Shown one piece after another: positions 2,755-20,602 of a stretch of 44,953 bases of DNA. The position numbers were made by a program, and so were the translations under genes. Source of the DNA: Saprospiraceae bacterium (GTDB lineage: Bacteria; Bacteroidota; Bacteroidia; Chitinophagales; Saprospiraceae); assembly GCA_022844265.1 (NCBI GenBank), contig JALHMA010000006.1, positions 1-44,953 of the forward strand, in the 5' to 3' direction. The notes beneath the pieces are model-generated. The model saw nothing but the letters and a program-made list of their open reading frames with translations, ran no database searches and was not told the origin of the DNA. Each line of letters begins with the position of its first letter. Position 1 is the first letter of the stretch.

Positions 2755-3327
2755 TTAACGTGCCGGTAACGACTCGCGTTTCATAAATAAACCGGCAATG
2801 AGACCGATAATAACCCCTACTACCGCGCCGCCGAATACCTGCGAAATAGCAACAAAAGTGGGGCTGATAAATGCACCGGCCATACTGAGCGCCATTTCAA
2901 TTTGCTCTTCACTCATGCCCTGGGCCTCATATTGGGCCATCATGGCTTCCCTCATTTGGTCTTCAAAACCGGTATTGATGACATTCAGGTACAACATCAT
3001 AAAAACAGCGCCTACTACGCCGGCTACGAGGCCGGTCAGCGCGCCGATACCTACACAGCGGCCCAGGCCGATAAATCCACCCAACTGCTCGTCACGGTCG
3101 ATACGTATGGCCGCCATTACGGCCCAGATGGCAACAGCGAATCCAACCAGCATATACACCCATTTGATTGCGCCGGTAGTTGGCAGGGATGGGTCGGTAT
3201 CGGTCAGATAAGCGACCAAAGTTGTCAGGATAGTAGTTCCACCCCAAATAGCGCCATAACGCAGCGCAAGGTGTTTAAAGGGTACAGTTGAGGGGTCTGT
3301 TGCAGATGGTCTGTCAAGTACGTCCAT
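2755..3327 (-). CDS. DUF4199-family membrane protein
   Basis: 190 residues with four hydrophobic segments (about 28-45, 56-74, 92-118, 155-182), glycine-rich in the second half (GLVAGVVGAVFMMLYLNV; GGAVVGVIIGLIAGLFM). The loop between helices 3 and 4 carries the EDQMREAMMAQYEAQGMSEE acidic helix typical of DUF4199 proteins. Likely paralogue of the gene at 2083. Its role is unknown; the family is usually annotated only as a membrane protein. A TACATTCG at 3364-3371 (minus strand) is one base off the -7 consensus and could be its promoter, shared across the divergent gap with the ABC exporter. Confidence 0.75.
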   Translation of the reverse strand: MDVLDRPSATDPSTVPFKHLALRYGAIWGGTTILTTLVAYLTDTDPSLPTTGAIKWVYMLVGFAVAIWAVMAAIRIDRDEQLGGFIGLGRCVGIGALTGLVAGVVGAVFMMLYLNVINTGFEDQMREAMMAQYEAQGMSEEQIEMALSMAGAFISPTFVAISQVFGGAVVGVIIGLIAGLFMKRESLPAR

Positions 3328-9945: not shown

Positions 9946-10180
9946 TTTTGTGTTTGGTATATGGTTTATGGTGTTTGGTGTTTAGTGTTTGGTGTTTAGG
10001 GCGCTTCGCGTTTGGCAGCAGTTAATATTATGGTCAAATTTCGTTGTCAAGGTGGTAATGCTGGGCTACACGACGCACTAAAGCCCAGCATTACCACCCT
10101 GATAACGAATAACGGATAACTAATAACTAAATCCCGGCCTGAAAAACGCATTCCAAAACCATAAACCCTGCCAAGCGGGA
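9946..10180. repeat. Mosaic intergenic repeat with a 17-bp hairpin (IR5)
   Basis: This is the 337-bp gap between two minus-strand genes. It starts with GTGTTTGGTGTTTAG heptads and a GGGCGCTTCGCGTTTGGCAG core (9951-10020), followed by AATATTATGGTCAAATTT, a decayed copy of the loop seen in IR6 and IR7. The matching second arm is missing. In its place stands an unrelated perfect 17-bp stem, 10051-10067/10082-10098, then ATAAC heptads (10100-10133), then GGCCTGAAAAAC...CCAAGCGGGATG (10134-10180), which matches the right half of IR7. It reads as a patchwork of modules. Confidence 0.8.
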
Positions 10181-10183
10181 TGC

Positions 10184-10289
10184 TCTCACCCTCTCACCCT
10201 CTCACCCTCTCACCCTCTCACCCTCTCACCCTCTCACCCTCTCACCCTCTCACCCTCTCACCCTCTCACTCTCTCACCTCTCACCCTCT
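10184..10289. repeat. TCTCACCC octamer tandem repeat at proA 3' end
   Basis: Ten perfect copies of TCTCACCC (10184-10263) followed by three or four degenerate copies. On the proA strand the unit is GGGTGAGA and carries a TGA. The proA stop codon itself (10281-10283) lies within a unit (GAGGGTGA), so the array starts inside the coding sequence. Likely prone to copy-number change. Confidence 0.95.
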
Positions 10290-11531
10290 AATCTGTCCCT
10301 TTCCCCACGCCATCCATTTTTCCGTCACCAGTTTTTCCAAAGCAAAAGGGCCGCGTGCATGCAGTTTCTGGGTAGAAATGCCGATTTCAGCGCCCAGTCC
10401 GAATTCCCCGCCGTCCGTAAAACGGGTAGATGCGTTGGCGTACACGGCTGCTGCGTCCACGGTTTCCATAAAATACTGACAGGCGGCGTCCTCTTCCGAA
10501 ACGATGGCTTCCGAGTGCCGCGAAGAGTGTTGGCGAATATGTTCGAGCGCCTCTTCCAGATTGGCCACAACCCGGACGGAACATTTATAATCCAGAAATT
10601 CGCGCCCAAAATCTTCCGGTTGGGCAGCTTGCAGGCGGGAATAACCGGCCTGTTGCAAAATGGCGAGGGAAGGCGCATCCGCAAAAACCTCCACTTGCCA
10701 GCGTTCAAAATCGGGCAGCAGCATCGGTAAAAACCGCGCTGCTATGTCCTGATCCAACAATATGGTATCCAATGCATTACACACAGATGGGCGCGATACT
10801 TTGGCATTTACGACGATGTCGCGGGCCTTTTCAAGATCAGCCGACCGGTGTACGTAGGTGTGGCAAACGCCGGCGCCGGTTTCAATGGTGGGCACCAGCG
10901 AATGTTGCCGTACGAACCGAATCAGCGATTCCGAGCCGCGCGGGATAATCATATCTACATACCGCGTGGCCGTGAGCAGTTCCTGCACCAGCGCACGATC
11001 CGTCGGGAGCAGGGTGACCGCGGCTACCGGCACATCAAAGGCAACCAGCGCCTGGTGGATCAGGTGCACCAGCGCCTGATTGCTGTGCCAGGCATCCGTA
11101 CTTCCGCGCAGCGCAACGGCATTGCCGGAACGCAGACACAGAGCGCTCACATCGAGCGTCACGTTGGGCCGCGACTCGTAAATGATACCGACCACGCCCA
11201 GCGGAACGGCTATTTTGCGCAGCAGGATACCATTCGGTAAGGTACGCTCACTCAAAACCTGTCCTGCCGGGCAGGGCAGTGCCGCAATGTCCCGGATACT
11301 TGCCGCAATGGCTTCGAGCCGGACGGGATTCAACAGCAGCCGGTCTTTTTTAGGGTCGGCATCGTCCATACGATCCAGGTCGATCTGGTTAGCCTGTAAA
11401 ACTGCGGCTTGATGTTCCACGATTAAATCGGCCAGATGAAGCAGGAGCGCTTGTTTGGATGCGTCGCTCAGGCGGCGGACCGCATCAGCGGCGAGATGTG
11501 TTTGTTCCAGAAGGGGAAGTATACTTGTCAT
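10281..11531 (-). CDS. proA: Glutamate-5-semialdehyde dehydrogenase
   Basis: 416 residues, the normal ProA length. It reduces gamma-glutamyl phosphate to glutamate semialdehyde with NADPH, the second step of proline synthesis in the cytoplasm. The catalytic Cys is in SRPSVCNALDT near residue 250. Other family landmarks are PLGVVGIIYESRPNVT near 117 and RGSTDAWHSN. Start and upstream proB stop overlap in an ATGA, so the two genes are translationally coupled. The last residues GQIRG and the stop are encoded at the beginning of the octamer repeat. No proC is in the window. Confidence 0.96.
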   Translation of the reverse strand: MTSILPLLEQTHLAADAVRRLSDASKQALLLHLADLIVEHQAAVLQANQIDLDRMDDADPKKDRLLLNPVRLEAIAASIRDIAALPCPAGQVLSERTLPNGILLRKIAVPLGVVGIIYESRPNVTLDVSALCLRSGNAVALRGSTDAWHSNQALVHLIHQALVAFDVPVAAVTLLPTDRALVQELLTATRYVDMIIPRGSESLIRFVRQHSLVPTIETGAGVCHTYVHRSADLEKARDIVVNAKVSRPSVCNALDTILLDQDIAARFLPMLLPDFERWQVEVFADAPSLAILQQAGYSRLQAAQPEDFGREFLDYKCSVRVVANLEEALEHIRQHSSRHSEAIVSEEDAACQYFMETVDAAAVYANASTRFTDGGEFGLGAEIGISTQKLHARGPFALEKLVTEKWMAWGKGQIRG

Positions 11532-14193: not shown

Positions 14194-14700
14194 ATGAAAA
14201 TGATCGACAAAACAGGTGCAAATAGCCTGGACAAAGATATATCTGTTGAAATCAGAAACTGGGAACCGGCTTTTAAAGAAGCCTTTTTCCAGTTGAACAA
14301 GGCATGGATCGAAGTGGATTATCCTTTGGAACCGCTCGATATTGCCGTGCTGAGTAACCCCGAAGGTCATATCCTGGACAAAGGTGGGGCTATTGTGGCG
14401 GCATTGATCGGAACGGAAGTTGTCGGCGTGGTGGCCTTGCGCCCTTTTGGCGAAGACAGTATGGAACTCACCAAAATGGCGGTCGACCAACGCTGGCGGG
14501 GTCGCGGCATCGGCGAAAAACTGATGTATGCGATGCTCCGGGTGGCACAGGAAAAAGGTGTTCCCCGGGTAGTGCTTTTTTCCAATTCCAACACCTCCGC
14601 TGCTGCGGTTAAACTGTATTTCAAAGTGGGTTTTAAAGAAATCTCCCTGGAAGCAGGGGTTTATGACAGAGCGAATATTAAAATGGAATTCATATTGTGA
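14194..14700 (+). CDS. GNAT N-acetyltransferase
   Basis: 168 residues. The acetyl-CoA pocket is ELTKMAVDQRWRGRGIGEKL at about 90-109, with the NSNTSAAAVKLYFKVGFKEI helix-strand near 130-149, both standard GNAT features. An opening EIRNWEPAFKEAFFQLNKAW resembles MarR-associated or aminoalkylphosphonate-type acetyltransferases, but the acceptor is unknown. It has its own well-spaced promoter. The stop codon (TGA, 14698-14700) leads directly into a GTGAGTAGTGAGTTGTGAG array. Confidence 0.87.
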   Translation: MKMIDKTGANSLDKDISVEIRNWEPAFKEAFFQLNKAWIEVDYPLEPLDIAVLSNPEGHILDKGGAIVAALIGTEVVGVVALRPFGEDSMELTKMAVDQRWRGRGIGEKLMYAMLRVAQEKGVPRVVLFSNSNTSAAAVKLYFKVGFKEISLEAGVYDRANIKMEFIL

Positions 14701-15037
14701 ATAGTGAGTAGTGAGTTGTGAGAGGCATCCCCTTTGGCATTTGGTGGTATTTTGGCATGGGTTTTTCAGGCCTGTAATTGAGAATCGTGTTTGGTGTGTG
14801 GTGTTTAGTGTTTAGGTCGCTTCGCGTTTGGCAGTAGTTGATATTTTGGTCGAAGTTCCACAAATGCCAAAGGCGGAGCGACCTAAACACTAAACACCAC
14901 ACACCAAACACGATTCTCGATTACAGGCCTGAAAAACCCATGCCAAAATACCACCAAATGCCAAAGGGGATGCCTCTCACCTCTCACCTCTCACCTCTCA
15001 CCTCTCACCTCTCTCACCTCTCTCACCTCTCACCTCT
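14696..15037. repeat. Composite inverted repeat plus TCTCACC heptads (IR6)
   Basis: Two 115-bp arms, 14718-14832 and 14866-14980, differ at only about three positions. Modules from outside in: GTGAGAGG, GGCATCCCCTTTGGC, TTTTTCAGGCCTGTAAT, GTGTTTGGTGTGTGGTG, TCGCTTCGCGTTTGGC. The 33-nt loop (14833-14865) contains ATATTTTGGTCGAA and TTCCACAAAT, also found in IR7. Left of the arms are GTGAGTAG heptads starting at the stop of the upstream GNAT. Right of them TCTCACC heptads (14974-15035) run up to the ATG at 15038. The whole 337-bp gap is repeat. Confidence 0.95.
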
Positions 15038-15457
15038 ATGACCATACATCTCGCCAAAACCCCCGAAGACATTGCCAAATGCACCCGAGCCATGCTCGAA
15101 CTGCGCCAGCATGTGGCTGCGGAATCGTTCGTCCCTTTGGTGCAGCAAATGATGCAGGAAGGTTACCAACTTGCATTTATTGAAGAAAACGGCGAGGCTG
15201 TAGCCGTTATCGGTTTTCGGTACCTCCAGTTCCTGTTTTGCGGTAAACATTTTTACATCGACGACCTGAGCACCCTGCCGGAAGCAAGGGGTAAAGGTTA
15301 TGGAGGTATGTTGCTCGATTATGTAGCCGATCTTGCCCGCGCTGCCGGTTACGATGTCATCACGCTTGATTCGGGGCATCACCGGCATACGGCGCATCGC
15401 CTGTACCTGAACAAAGGATTTTCTATTTCCAGCCATCATTTTACCAAAAAAATGTGA
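15038..15457 (+). CDS. GNAT N-acetyltransferase
   Basis: 139 residues, compact GNAT fold. DDLSTLPEARGKGYGGMLLD at about 72-91 is the acetyl-CoA loop, followed by a helix and the GHHRHTAHRLYLNKGFSI segment that typically closes the fold. Acceptor unknown. There is no room for an ordinary promoter immediately upstream because the start codon abuts a TCTCACC heptad array, so transcription probably enters from the upstream GNAT gene across IR6, or from within the repeat. The stop (TGA) forms the first unit of IR8. Confidence 0.85.
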   Translation: MTIHLAKTPEDIAKCTRAMLELRQHVAAESFVPLVQQMMQEGYQLAFIEENGEAVAVIGFRYLQFLFCGKHFYIDDLSTLPEARGKGYGGMLLDYVADLARAAGYDVITLDSGHHRHTAHRLYLNKGFSISSHHFTKKM

Positions 15458-15577
15458 GTGGTGAGTAGTGAGTCGTGAGTGGCATTCGTTTAGGGGAACG
15501 AACTCATGTTCTTCTGAACGAATTCCACTCACCACTCACTACTCACCACTCACGACTCACGACTCACCACTCACGCT
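15453..15577. repeat. Intergenic inverted repeat, TGAGTNG heptads (IR8)
   Basis: Left arm 15453-15482: TGAGTGG TGAGTAG TGAGTCG TGAGTGG, beginning exactly with the stop codon of the GNAT gene. Right arm 15525-15575: the inverse CCACTCA/CTACTCA/CGACTCA units, more copies, ending two bases before the ATG at 15578. In between, ATTCGTT...AACGAAC and GTTC/GAAC pairs give an inner stem. The third base of the unit varies freely between A, G and C. Confidence 0.95.
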
Positions 15578-16372
15578 ATGAAACTACCCATCTATCAGGT
15601 CGACGCCTTCACCGACCACCTGTTTGGCGGAAACCCTGCCGCAGTTGTACCCCTTCAAACCTGGCTGTCCGATGAAACCATGCAATTGATTGCCCGGGAA
15701 AACAACCTGGCCGAAACGGCTTTTTTTGTGCCGCTCGAAGGCCCCGATCAGTTTCATATTCGATGGTTCACACCCACGATCGAAGTGCAGTTGTGCGGAC
15801 ATGCGACGCTTGCTACGGCATACGTGGTGATCAATTGCCTGAAAATCAACCAGTCAGATCAGATTTCTTTTCAAAGTAAAAGTGGTTGGTTGCATGTAAG
15901 CCGCAAAGAAGATATGCTGACACTCGACTTTCCAGTCGACCATCCTAAATCGGCCGTACTGCCGGAAGCCGCGCGGGAAGGGTTCAATATTTTGCCGGAA
16001 GCAGTTTGGATGGGCCGGGAAGATTACCTGCTGCTCTATCGCAGTGAAGCGGAAGTGCTGGCACTGCGGCCCGATTTTCGCATGTTGGCTACGGAACCTG
16101 TGCGCGGGTTTATTGCCACCGCGCCCGGCGATCATTCCGATTTTGTATCGCGTTGTTTTTTTCCCGCTTCCGGTATCGACGAAGACCCTGCGACCGGTTC
16201 GGCACATACCACACTCACGCCGTTTTGGGCGGGAAAAACGGGCAAAACCAGTTTCTCCGCCATCCAGGTCTCCGAGCGACGCGGTTATCTGCAATGCAGC
16301 CTGGAAGGAGATCGGGTACTGATTGCAGGCAAAGGGAAGTTGTACCTGGAAGGATACTTTTGGGAGAAGTGA
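15578..16372 (+). CDS. PhzF-family isomerase
   Basis: 264 residues. The PhzF/diaminopimelate-epimerase-like fold is shown by the start YQVDAFTDHLFGGNPAAVVP, the catalytic-Glu segment NNLAETAFFVP near 44-54, LCGHATLATAYV near 72-83, and DPATGSAHTTL near 202-212. PhzF relatives catalyse isomerisations of small acids; phenazine synthesis itself needs partners not present here, so the substrate is unknown. Slightly short of the usual 260-300 residues but complete. The last codons GAGAAG and stop TGA are in phase with the GAGAAGT heptads of IR7. Confidence 0.9.
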   Translation: MKLPIYQVDAFTDHLFGGNPAAVVPLQTWLSDETMQLIARENNLAETAFFVPLEGPDQFHIRWFTPTIEVQLCGHATLATAYVVINCLKINQSDQISFQSKSGWLHVSRKEDMLTLDFPVDHPKSAVLPEAAREGFNILPEAVWMGREDYLLLYRSEAEVLALRPDFRMLATEPVRGFIATAPGDHSDFVSRCFFPASGIDEDPATGSAHTTLTPFWAGKTGKTSFSAIQVSERRGYLQCSLEGDRVLIAGKGKLYLEGYFWEK

Positions 16373-16656
16373 GAAGTGAGAGGCATCCCCTTTGGCTGCT
16401 CTATTGGTTTTGCATTGGTTTTTCAGGCCTGTAATCGTGAATCGTATTTAGTGTGTGGTGTTTAGTGTTTCGGGGGCTTCGCGTTTGGCTACAGTAAATA
16501 TTTTGGTCGAATTTCCACAAATGCCAAACGCGAAGCCCCCGAAACACTAAACACCACACACTAAATACGATTCACGATTACAGGCCTGAAAAACCAATCC
16601 AAAGCCAATAGAACCGCCAAGCGGGATGATTCTCACTTCTCACTTCTCACTTCTCA
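16362..16656. repeat. Composite inverted repeat between convergent genes (IR7)
   Basis: Inner arms 16414-16489 and 16523-16598 are a perfect 76-bp inverted repeat around a 33-nt loop (TATTTTGGTCGAATTTCCAC inside). Module order matches IR6: TTTTTCAGGCCTG, GTGTGTGGTGTTTAGTG, GGGGGCTTCGCGTTTGGC. The outer parts (GGCATCCC block) pair imperfectly, and the ends are GAGAAGTGAGAAGTGAG heptads that overlap the stop codons of both neighbours (16370-16372 and 16654-16656). Confidence 0.95.
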
Positions 16657-17457
16657 CATCCTCGCCACCTCAATCATCCTATCTTCCACCCTCCGGACAA
16701 TTTCATTGAATTGTGCGCTGTGTTTTACTTCCATATTGCGGTTGAAGGGCAGGTCGACGGATATATGGTGTACAAAACGGCCCGGATTAGCAGCCATGAT
16801 GTAAATATCGTCGGCTAGATAAACTGCTTCTTCGATGTCGTGGGTAACAAAAACGATGGTGGGCTGGAATTTCAGCCAGATATCTTCCAGCAAATCCTGC
16901 ATTTGCAGGCGGGTATTGATGTCGAGTGCGCCGAAAGGTTCGTCCATCAGCAGGATATCGGGACTGGCAATGATGCTGCGTGCGATTGCGATCCGTTGCA
17001 GTTGTCCGCCCGACAGGGTAGGGTAGACGGCATATTTGTTTTCATGCCCGGCAAGGCCCACCATTTCAATCATTTCCTGGGCGCGGCGGCGGCGTTCTTT
17101 CGCATCCACCTGCTGAAAACTCAGTCCCAGTTCCACATTTTCGAGTACGGTCATCCAGGGCAGCGAGGAGTATTGCTGGAATACCATGCCCGCCCGGATA
17201 CCCGATTCCTGGACGGGTTTTTCGCGCAGCAGCACTTGTCCGGAAGTTGGGTTTTGCAAACCGGCGATATAACGCAGCAGCGTACTTTTTCCACAACCAG
17301 AAGCGCCCAGAATCACGACAAACTGGCCCTGACCTGGTTTGTCTTCAATCAAAAAGTCCAGGTCTTTGATAATGAAGTCTTTACCATTGCTATAGGTCTG
17401 GCTGATGTTTTTCAGTTCAATGATATTGGGAAGATCAGTGTCTTTAATTGCAAGCAT
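16654..17457 (-). CDS. ABC importer ATPase, nitrate/sulfonate/taurine type
   Basis: 267 residues. Walker A GASGCGKST is near 52-60, signature LSGGQLQRIA near 148, Walker B ILLMDEPFGALD near 168 and switch His in FVTHDIEEAVYLADD near 203. The closest type is the SsuB/TauB/NrtD branch, which powers uptake of sulfonates, nitrate, bicarbonate or thiamine precursors. The permease lies upstream on the same strand, but no substrate-binding lipoprotein is nearby, so the substrate cannot be named. A repeat-filled 163-bp gap (IR9) separates the two subunits. The start is followed upstream by an ATAAC heptad stretch. Confidence 0.92.
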   Translation of the reverse strand: MLAIKDTDLPNIIELKNISQTYSNGKDFIIKDLDFLIEDKPGQGQFVVILGASGCGKSTLLRYIAGLQNPTSGQVLLREKPVQESGIRAGMVFQQYSSLPWMTVLENVELGLSFQQVDAKERRRRAQEMIEMVGLAGHENKYAVYPTLSGGQLQRIAIARSIIASPDILLMDEPFGALDINTRLQMQDLLEDIWLKFQPTIVFVTHDIEEAVYLADDIYIMAANPGRFVHHISVDLPFNRNMEVKHSAQFNEIVRRVEDRMIEVARM

Positions 17458-20447: not shown

Positions 20448-20597
20448 AGTAAGGTTGATGAGGTTGATAAGGGTTGATAAAGGTTGATAAAGGTTGATAA
20501 AGGTTGATAATACATCCGCTCAAAAAAAGTTAAATTGCTCCATTTTCGAGCGAATGTATTATCAACCTCATCAACCTCATCAACCTTTATCAACCCT
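20436..20597. repeat. Intergenic inverted repeat, AGGTTGATAA decamers (IR10)
   Basis: Left arm: five AGGTTGATAA-type decamers at 20461-20510 preceded by AGGTTGATG. Right arm 20558-20596: ATCAACCTC and ATCAACCTTT units. The inner stem TACATYCGCTC/GAGCGAATGTA flanks a ~20-nt A-rich loop. The last codons and stop of the upstream gene (AGGTTGATTTAA, 20436-20447) are one or two changes from the repeat unit, as if the unit had been copied from the gene's own end. Confidence 0.93.
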
Positions 20598-20602
20598 ATG
20601 AC

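Follow-up and report, generated by a model that had tools for sequence, protein, structure and literature searches.

The window studied here, positions 1 to 44,953 of contig JALHMA010000006.1 from a Saprospiraceae bacterium, contains two long palindromes, each of which takes up nearly all of the gap between two open reading frames (ORFs). IR6 lies between the ORFs at 14194-14700 and 15038-15457, with arms of 130 nt at 14704-14833 and 14865-14994 that have 7 mismatches, and IR7 lies between the ORFs at 15578-16372 and 16654-17457, with arms of 126 nt at 16364-16489 and 16523-16648 that have 8. A preliminary description of this DNA had given IR7 perfect inner arms of 76 bp, and in the alignment the 76 innermost pairs are indeed without mismatch; the arms of 115 bp that it gave for IR6 are a matter of the chosen arm end. 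A neighbouring palindrome of GTGAGTN heptads (15454-15553, no strand assigned) sits between the ORFs at 15038-15457 and 15578-16372 and is of the F5 family, the names F5, F8 and F9 being labels coined in the present analysis.

Both IR6 and IR7 consist of an outer module, F9, and an inner module, F8. F9 is made of GTGAGAN heptads, TCCC(G/C)YTTGGC (TTTTTCAGGCCTG), a variable stretch and TTTTTCAGGCCTGTAATCGTGA, and F8 of GTGTTTN heptads, GCTTCGCSTTTGGC and the loop. Reading through IR6, the left arm of F9 (14704-14786, with GTGAGTN/GTGAGAN heptads, GCATCCCCTTTGGC and TTTTTCAGGCCTGTAAT) is followed by the left GTGTTTN heptads of F8 (14787-14818), the left core stem of F8 (GCTTCGCGTTTGGC, 14819-14832), the 33-nt loop on the plus strand (14833-14865), the right core stem with its heptads (14866-14911) and the right arm of F9 (14912-14994). 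IR7 has F9 at 16364-16443, where its first bases overlap the 3' part of the ORF at 15578-16372, then F8 heptads at 16444-16475, the core stem at 16476-16489, a 33-nt loop at 16490-16522, again on the plus strand, the right core stem and heptads at 16523-16568 and the right arm of F9 at 16569-16648; the arm modules carry no strand assignment in either palindrome. That the two share a module order (TTTTTCAGGCCTG, GTGT.. heptads, GCTTCGCGTTTGGC, loop) and a 33-nt loop had been noticed beforehand and is borne out by the arm and loop coordinates. Each of the two is a copy of one composite interspersed palindrome, F9 around F8.

It is apparent that these are not the only copies. A 25-nt loop pattern has two matches in the window and a mean of 0.00 in 100 shuffles, and the search of the genome that the preliminary description had proposed gave, for the 6.05-Mb draft genome, 30 places that match the loop pattern at up to 3 mismatches and none that match the reversed control pattern. 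F9 flanks the loop on both sides in 10 of these 30, on the single uncut side in 8 where a contig end cuts off the other, on one side only in 4 and on neither side in 7, with 1 unclear. Nine copies lie between convergent genes and, among those in tandem gaps, 4 are sense and 2 antisense, with 12 of the 30 having no called gene on one side. There are 21 copies with at least 110 nt on each side, and 9 whose distance to a contig end is at most 60 nt, some of which are possibly one copy viewed from both sides. This closeness to contig ends is what would be expected if the palindromes were an assembly artefact, that is fold-back chimeras of a draft genome, and the locus L254 of a sister species (G030:C601, from position 3299), a near-perfect inverted repeat with a score of 8351 and arms of about 8.35 kb, resembles such a chimera and probably is one. 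However, in several genomes there are palindromes away from contig ends, with ordinary genes to either side; their modules are specific to the family and their flanks are conserved, and an artefact is a most improbable explanation for them.

The loop varies between elements. F8 is also found without F9 and with different loops, and a loop typing of 62 stem matches, which is crude, may count both strands of an element and shows only that the loop is variable, placed 9 of them in the exact IR6/IR7 type. Within the window a decayed half copy on the plus strand at 10003-10061 has the left stem of F8 and the 5' half of the loop and then runs into unrelated sequence (a weak match in a cmsearch of 297 kb, at 19.3 bits and E 0.043); if this is the decayed loop that had been ascribed to IR5, the left arm and the 5' loop half stand and the remainder is other sequence. 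The dispersed-repeat signal nearby at 10183-10290 is a GTGAGAG heptad array only. Elsewhere in the genome an F8 element (L026 and L027, G000:C437:3554-3668) is partly duplicated in tandem, with two loops 68 nt apart, and at L061:13495 the arms hold a mirrored 5' half of the normally unpaired F8 loop, a single case of loop sequence mirrored in the arms. Of the two refuting results named in the preliminary description, the lack of further copies is not borne out, and the other is, in that the loops elsewhere differ and it is the stem and heptads that are kept.

The preliminary description had regarded the conserved loop as the mark of a structured RNA, a protein-binding hairpin or the end of a mobile element, on the ground that neutral palindromes rarely keep the loop. 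A structured RNA was rejected as the cause of loop conservation on several lines of evidence. The loop pattern at up to 3 mismatches is restricted to one of the 60 genomes searched, the present one, a scan of Rfam gave no match at the gathering score, and on either strand the loop folds no better than its shuffles, of which 101 to 152 of 200 fold at least equally well. Mismatches in the arms, read on the plus strand, comprise 170 G-T and 178 A-C, and when oriented to the sense of tandem genes 106 G-T and 86 A-C (p 0.17, no significant G.U bias). Neither the one-strand G.U preference nor the loop shared across species that a structured non-coding RNA would have was found. A copy in the sister species G030 (GTGTGCATTTTGGCCAAATTACCCAC / GCTTCGCCTTTGGCAGCTGTGTGCATTTTGGCCAAATTACCCACAGACGCTAAAGGCGAAGC) is nearly palindromic right through its centre, which suggests that the loop of IR6 and IR7 is the centre of this palindrome in a decayed form, and the loop appears to have become fixed within a single, recently spread subfamily. 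The conserved loop looks like the trace of recent copying within a single species and not like a functional RNA, and of the three options offered the mobile element fares best, the palindromes being copies of a dispersed element family.

In about a fifth of the genome (1.244 Mb) there are 241 inverted repeats with a score of at least 25, and 20 block-shuffled stretches gave none with a score of at least 20. About a dozen recurring families can be told apart by eye, most with tandem 7-nt units in their arms, and F9 is found around F5 too (L052:9199, L070:10050, L042) and around a GCCCCAGCGGGG element at L076:11372. Assignment by regular expression left 151 of 285 palindromes without a family and marked IR7 as F8 with F9, yet not IR6, so that family counts are lower bounds. 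GTGTTTN heptad arrays as such occur in many phyla, with at least 113 stretches that are often without a palindrome, the phyla including Planctomycetota, Verrucomicrobia and Desulfobacterota among the matches listed.

The palindromes are located at the 3' ends of genes. Tandem gaps hold 109 of the 241, convergent gaps 75 and divergent gaps 22, out of 339, 116 and 112 available gaps of at least 80 nt, with the remainder centred inside a called ORF (25, ORF starts being crude) or at the ends of stretches (10). The median distance from the edge of a palindrome to the adjoining gene is 8 nt for a 3' end (n=259) and 41 nt for a 5' end (n=153). Such placement would be expected of hairpins selected at transcript ends, as terminators, possibly bidirectional, or as stabilisers of the 3' end of mRNA, the pairing of the arms then being kept by selection; equally, it may reflect the tolerance of insertions at operon ends. 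Termination hairpins need far shorter arms than the 126-130 nt found here, which exceed the needs of termination by far, and a scan for intrinsic terminators, covering loops of 3-8 nt only, had no entry inside IR6 or IR7.

The arms differ between copies and match within them. For the 21 complete copies selected by their loop alone, a selection in which the arms played no part, the own partner arm is a better fit than partners reassigned by permutation (0 of 20,000), with the own partner best or tied in just 8 of the 21. Local alignment was used for this comparison in place of an ungapped one anchored on TTGGC, as heptad numbers vary. Across 11 families the median arm identity is higher within copies than between them in all 11, and the own partner beats or ties every other arm in 79 of 127 copies, a test biased by the detection of the copies through arm identity. 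The F8 stem covaries, 13 cells having both sides changed, with a shuffled mean of 2.8. Arm perfection is uneven, with perfect copies alongside decayed ones, and this could be read to mean that arms are perfect where a copy is new, having been inserted through snap-back (hairpin) DNA or cDNA, and decay as the copy ages.

Orthologous loci in two sister species, G034 and G027, which have a mean nucleotide identity of about 85% over 187.5 kb aligned, bear on all of these explanations. Of 66 palindromes in G034, 28 could not be mapped to G027, 3 fell at breakpoints and 35 were mapped, with the same family present at 16 of the 35 places, a different family in the same gap at 13, and 6 scored as absent. 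The 13 are an upper bound, in that C27:35915 is of one family in both species, with an insertion added in G027, and the heptads at C27:27284 and C27:34442 are alike; the 6 absences become 5 by eye, C25:7220 retaining a related repeat left unscored by the finder. A palindrome can thus be present in one species and absent from the other at the same locus, and one element can lie inside another, as in a G027 element whose right arm has a second palindrome inserted that G034 is without. No target-site duplication was found, the junctions falling in heptads or diverged DNA. The genes flanking IR7 (16364-16648) mark a synteny break, being on separate contigs, and well inside them, both in G034 (C27 and C35) and in G027 (C188 and C30).

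Where the family is the same, differences between the species are often mirrored in the two arms. The 16 pairs, which were picked by arm similarity, have 67 mirrored differences, of which 38 are transversions and 29 transitions, and 48 that are one-sided (25 and 23), together with 4 shared asymmetries and 17 others. Three loose pairs (C43:32112, C51:32241 and C35:72075) account for 29 of the 67 and are possibly not homologous throughout, and removing them leaves 38 mirrored and 39 one-sided; the 8 safest pairs, in which one alignment spans the palindrome, have 27 of each, with 19 transversions and 8 transitions in both classes. Single pairs range from G034:C35:82243 / G027:C30:10168, the cleanest, with 5 mirrored differences (4 transversions) and none one-sided in 44 arm columns, to C27:24812, with 1 mirrored and 10 one-sided. 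Even equal counts would be far from what is expected if the arms changed independently, which is very few mirrored differences. There is no excess of transitions among the mirrored differences (Fisher p 0.70 for the 16 pairs, 0.64 and 1.0 for the subsets). Of 16 loci whose spacers are of sufficient length, 5 were readable, and 2 of these have the spacer inverted and 3 do not, the inversions having p 0.012 and 0.004 against shuffles, uncorrected for 16 loci; at one, G034:C35:33505, the spacer is flipped between flanks that, like a shared arm asymmetry, are oriented alike in both species.

These observations weigh against both pairing kept by selection and insertion of ready-made hairpins. Were the arms kept paired in RNA, wobble intermediates would be expected to leave mirrored changes poorer in transversions than one-sided ones, but the two are equally rich in them, and G.U is not in excess over A.C in the arms; selection for transcript-end hairpins is therefore unlikely to account for the palindromes, though it is compatible with arm copying. 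Insertion by snap-back is in keeping with presence and absence between sister species, with nested insertion, with perfect copies beside decayed ones and with the turnover of families at one site, yet it does not predict mirrored differences in orthologous palindromes of one family whose flanks align through, nor the inversion of a spacer inside kept flanks, and we consider it doubtful to much the same degree. Mirrored differences without a transition bias, taken with inverted spacers, are the footprint of DNA template switching and not of RNA pairing. Mirrored change with spacer inversion, as in a template-switch repeat, and presence or absence at a locus, as in a MITE-like element, were both found.

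The arms of a copy most likely match because one half has been copied onto the other during DNA replication. In the mechanism proposed, DNA polymerase would switch template repeatedly between the arms of a hairpin, or between strands, overwriting one arm with a copy of its partner and inverting the spacer now and then, a footprint of arm homogenisation and spacer inversion that is described in the available part of PMC8604942. The arms would evolve as a single unit, and the uncopied loop would retain the sequence of the last founder element. It need not hold, then, that neutral palindromes rarely keep the loop, as arm copying rewrites the arms and spares the spacer, so that a subfamily of recent spread can retain its loop while its arms diverge. 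The elements themselves may spread by a mobilising system and land in or beside existing palindromes, with the result that families would succeed each other at the same gene ends. No mobilising enzyme was found in the analysis and transposition itself was not seen among the loci compared. The homogenisation of arms is incomplete, given the copies whose own partner is best (8 of 21 and 79 of 127) and the one-sided differences that are as many as the mirrored in the safest pairs, and mirrored differences would likewise arise if a related copy took the place of an entire element. Overall, the palindromes are probably a composite family at gene ends with arms co-copied by template switching, and the loop probably reflects a recent burst in one species.

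The families extend to some sister species of this bacterium. In a survey of 20 stretches from 12 sister genomes (9.6-20 kb each, palindrome score of at least 22) the numbers per stretch were 6 and 0 in G015, 2, 3 and 6 in G030, 3 and 1 in G061, 4 and 3 in G027, 7 and 4 in G034, 2 in G021, 0 and 1 in G006, 0 and 0 in G008, and 1 apiece in G031, G032, G009 and G007. A covariance model of the F8 core has 116 matches in the present genome, both strands counted, 31 in G027, 25 in G034, 8 in G030 and 1 in G033; under strict filters the remaining 37 of the 42 genomes have no match at E <= 0.001. The same stem module is found on the public metagenome-assembled contig L147 (Saprospiraceae) and a diverged version on L116 (Bacteroidota), and collections of plasmids and phages gave no match to IR7. 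The repeat period varies between sister species, the arm unit being 7 nt (GTTATTN, GTGTTTN) in the present genome and 8 nt (GTTATTNN, GTGTTTTN) at L261:16899 (G034:C27) and G034:C35:47789.

Dispersed palindromes of this kind call to mind the REP, BIME and REPIN elements, which, in the parts of PMC3733652 and PMC8266576 that were available, are likewise extragenic, of several families per genome and non-autonomous in appearance. REP elements are described there as stem-loops of 20-50 nt with a stem of 5-13 bp and a GTAG or CGTC tag at one end, whereas the arms here, at 126-130 nt, are about ten times longer and the ends of IR6 and IR7 have neither tag. They might be moved by a REP-associated tyrosine transposase recognising the loop or a GTAG tag, given that GTAG lies inside many loops and that there are three Y1_Tnp (PF01797) matches in this genome. 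However, the IR7 loop has TACAGTAA and no GTAG, and the inverted repeats listed around the three Y1_Tnp loci, over about 1.5 kb or less where a contig ends, include neither F8 nor F9. Y1_Tnp is also present in 34 of 42 congeners, including those poor in palindromes or free of them in the stretches read, and is absent from G061 although that genome has palindromes, so that no linked RAYT transposase was found at the three loci and no link is evident across the 42 genomes. Movement by such a transposase is thus improbable.

Other systems share some of these features. Template-switched quasi-palindromes, in the portions of PMC8604942 and PMC8794818 available, are alike in their identical arms, mirrored multi-base changes, spacer inversion and copying of loop to stem, but have short arms of about 10-16 bp in yeast genes and of a few bp in rRNA; the two palindromes studied here have arms of 126-130 nt with tandem heptads and are members of dispersed families, with the process seemingly active at many gene ends of one clade. 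The mitochondrial palindromes of Nematomorpha have perfect arms of up to 142 bp and concerted evolution, with template switching proposed, and are coding, the available part of PMC6649704 making no mention of modular heptads, nesting or dispersed families. Multicopy intergenic sequences of Geobacter metallireducens, which are putatively regulatory, also fall into many families, some palindromic and some with four tandem heptanucleotides, and the available part of PMC2700814 has no account of mirrored heptad arms, nesting or turnover. No paper on the present families or their turnover was found among the matches listed from the open-access literature. What we did not find described is the scale of these template-switch-homogenised dispersed palindromes and their modular, nested and site-persistent organisation.

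The persistence of the sites is apparent from the gaps themselves. In 27 of 133 orthologous gaps both species have a palindrome, with 9.5 expected when gap orientation is kept (0/20,000), and this holds even where the family differs, a different family being in the same gene gap at up to 13 of the 35 orthologous places. At 20448-20602 in the window four families are found across five species. Co-occupied gaps fit the succession of families by insertion into old palindromes, and fit equally a need for a hairpin at gene ends, which is a point in favour of selected transcript-end hairpins. A tentative further step would be that the gene end outlasts the repeat, operon ends keeping a palindrome while its arms are overwritten by template switching and its family is replaced by insertion. 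If so, what is inherited would be the form of the hairpin, with its sequence exchanged over time. This would make it a mode of non-coding evolution in its own right, and a long palindrome may be a required structure at the 3' end.

Compensatory change in a hairpin is usually read as selection on RNA, yet here, in a bacterial clade with many long natural hairpins, mirrored change appears to stem from the copying process, with transversions and spacer inversions as its markers. The clade provides a dense natural setting in which to test template switching and a case of hairpin sites that outlast the repeats occupying them, and it is a warning for the discovery of RNAs from covariation.
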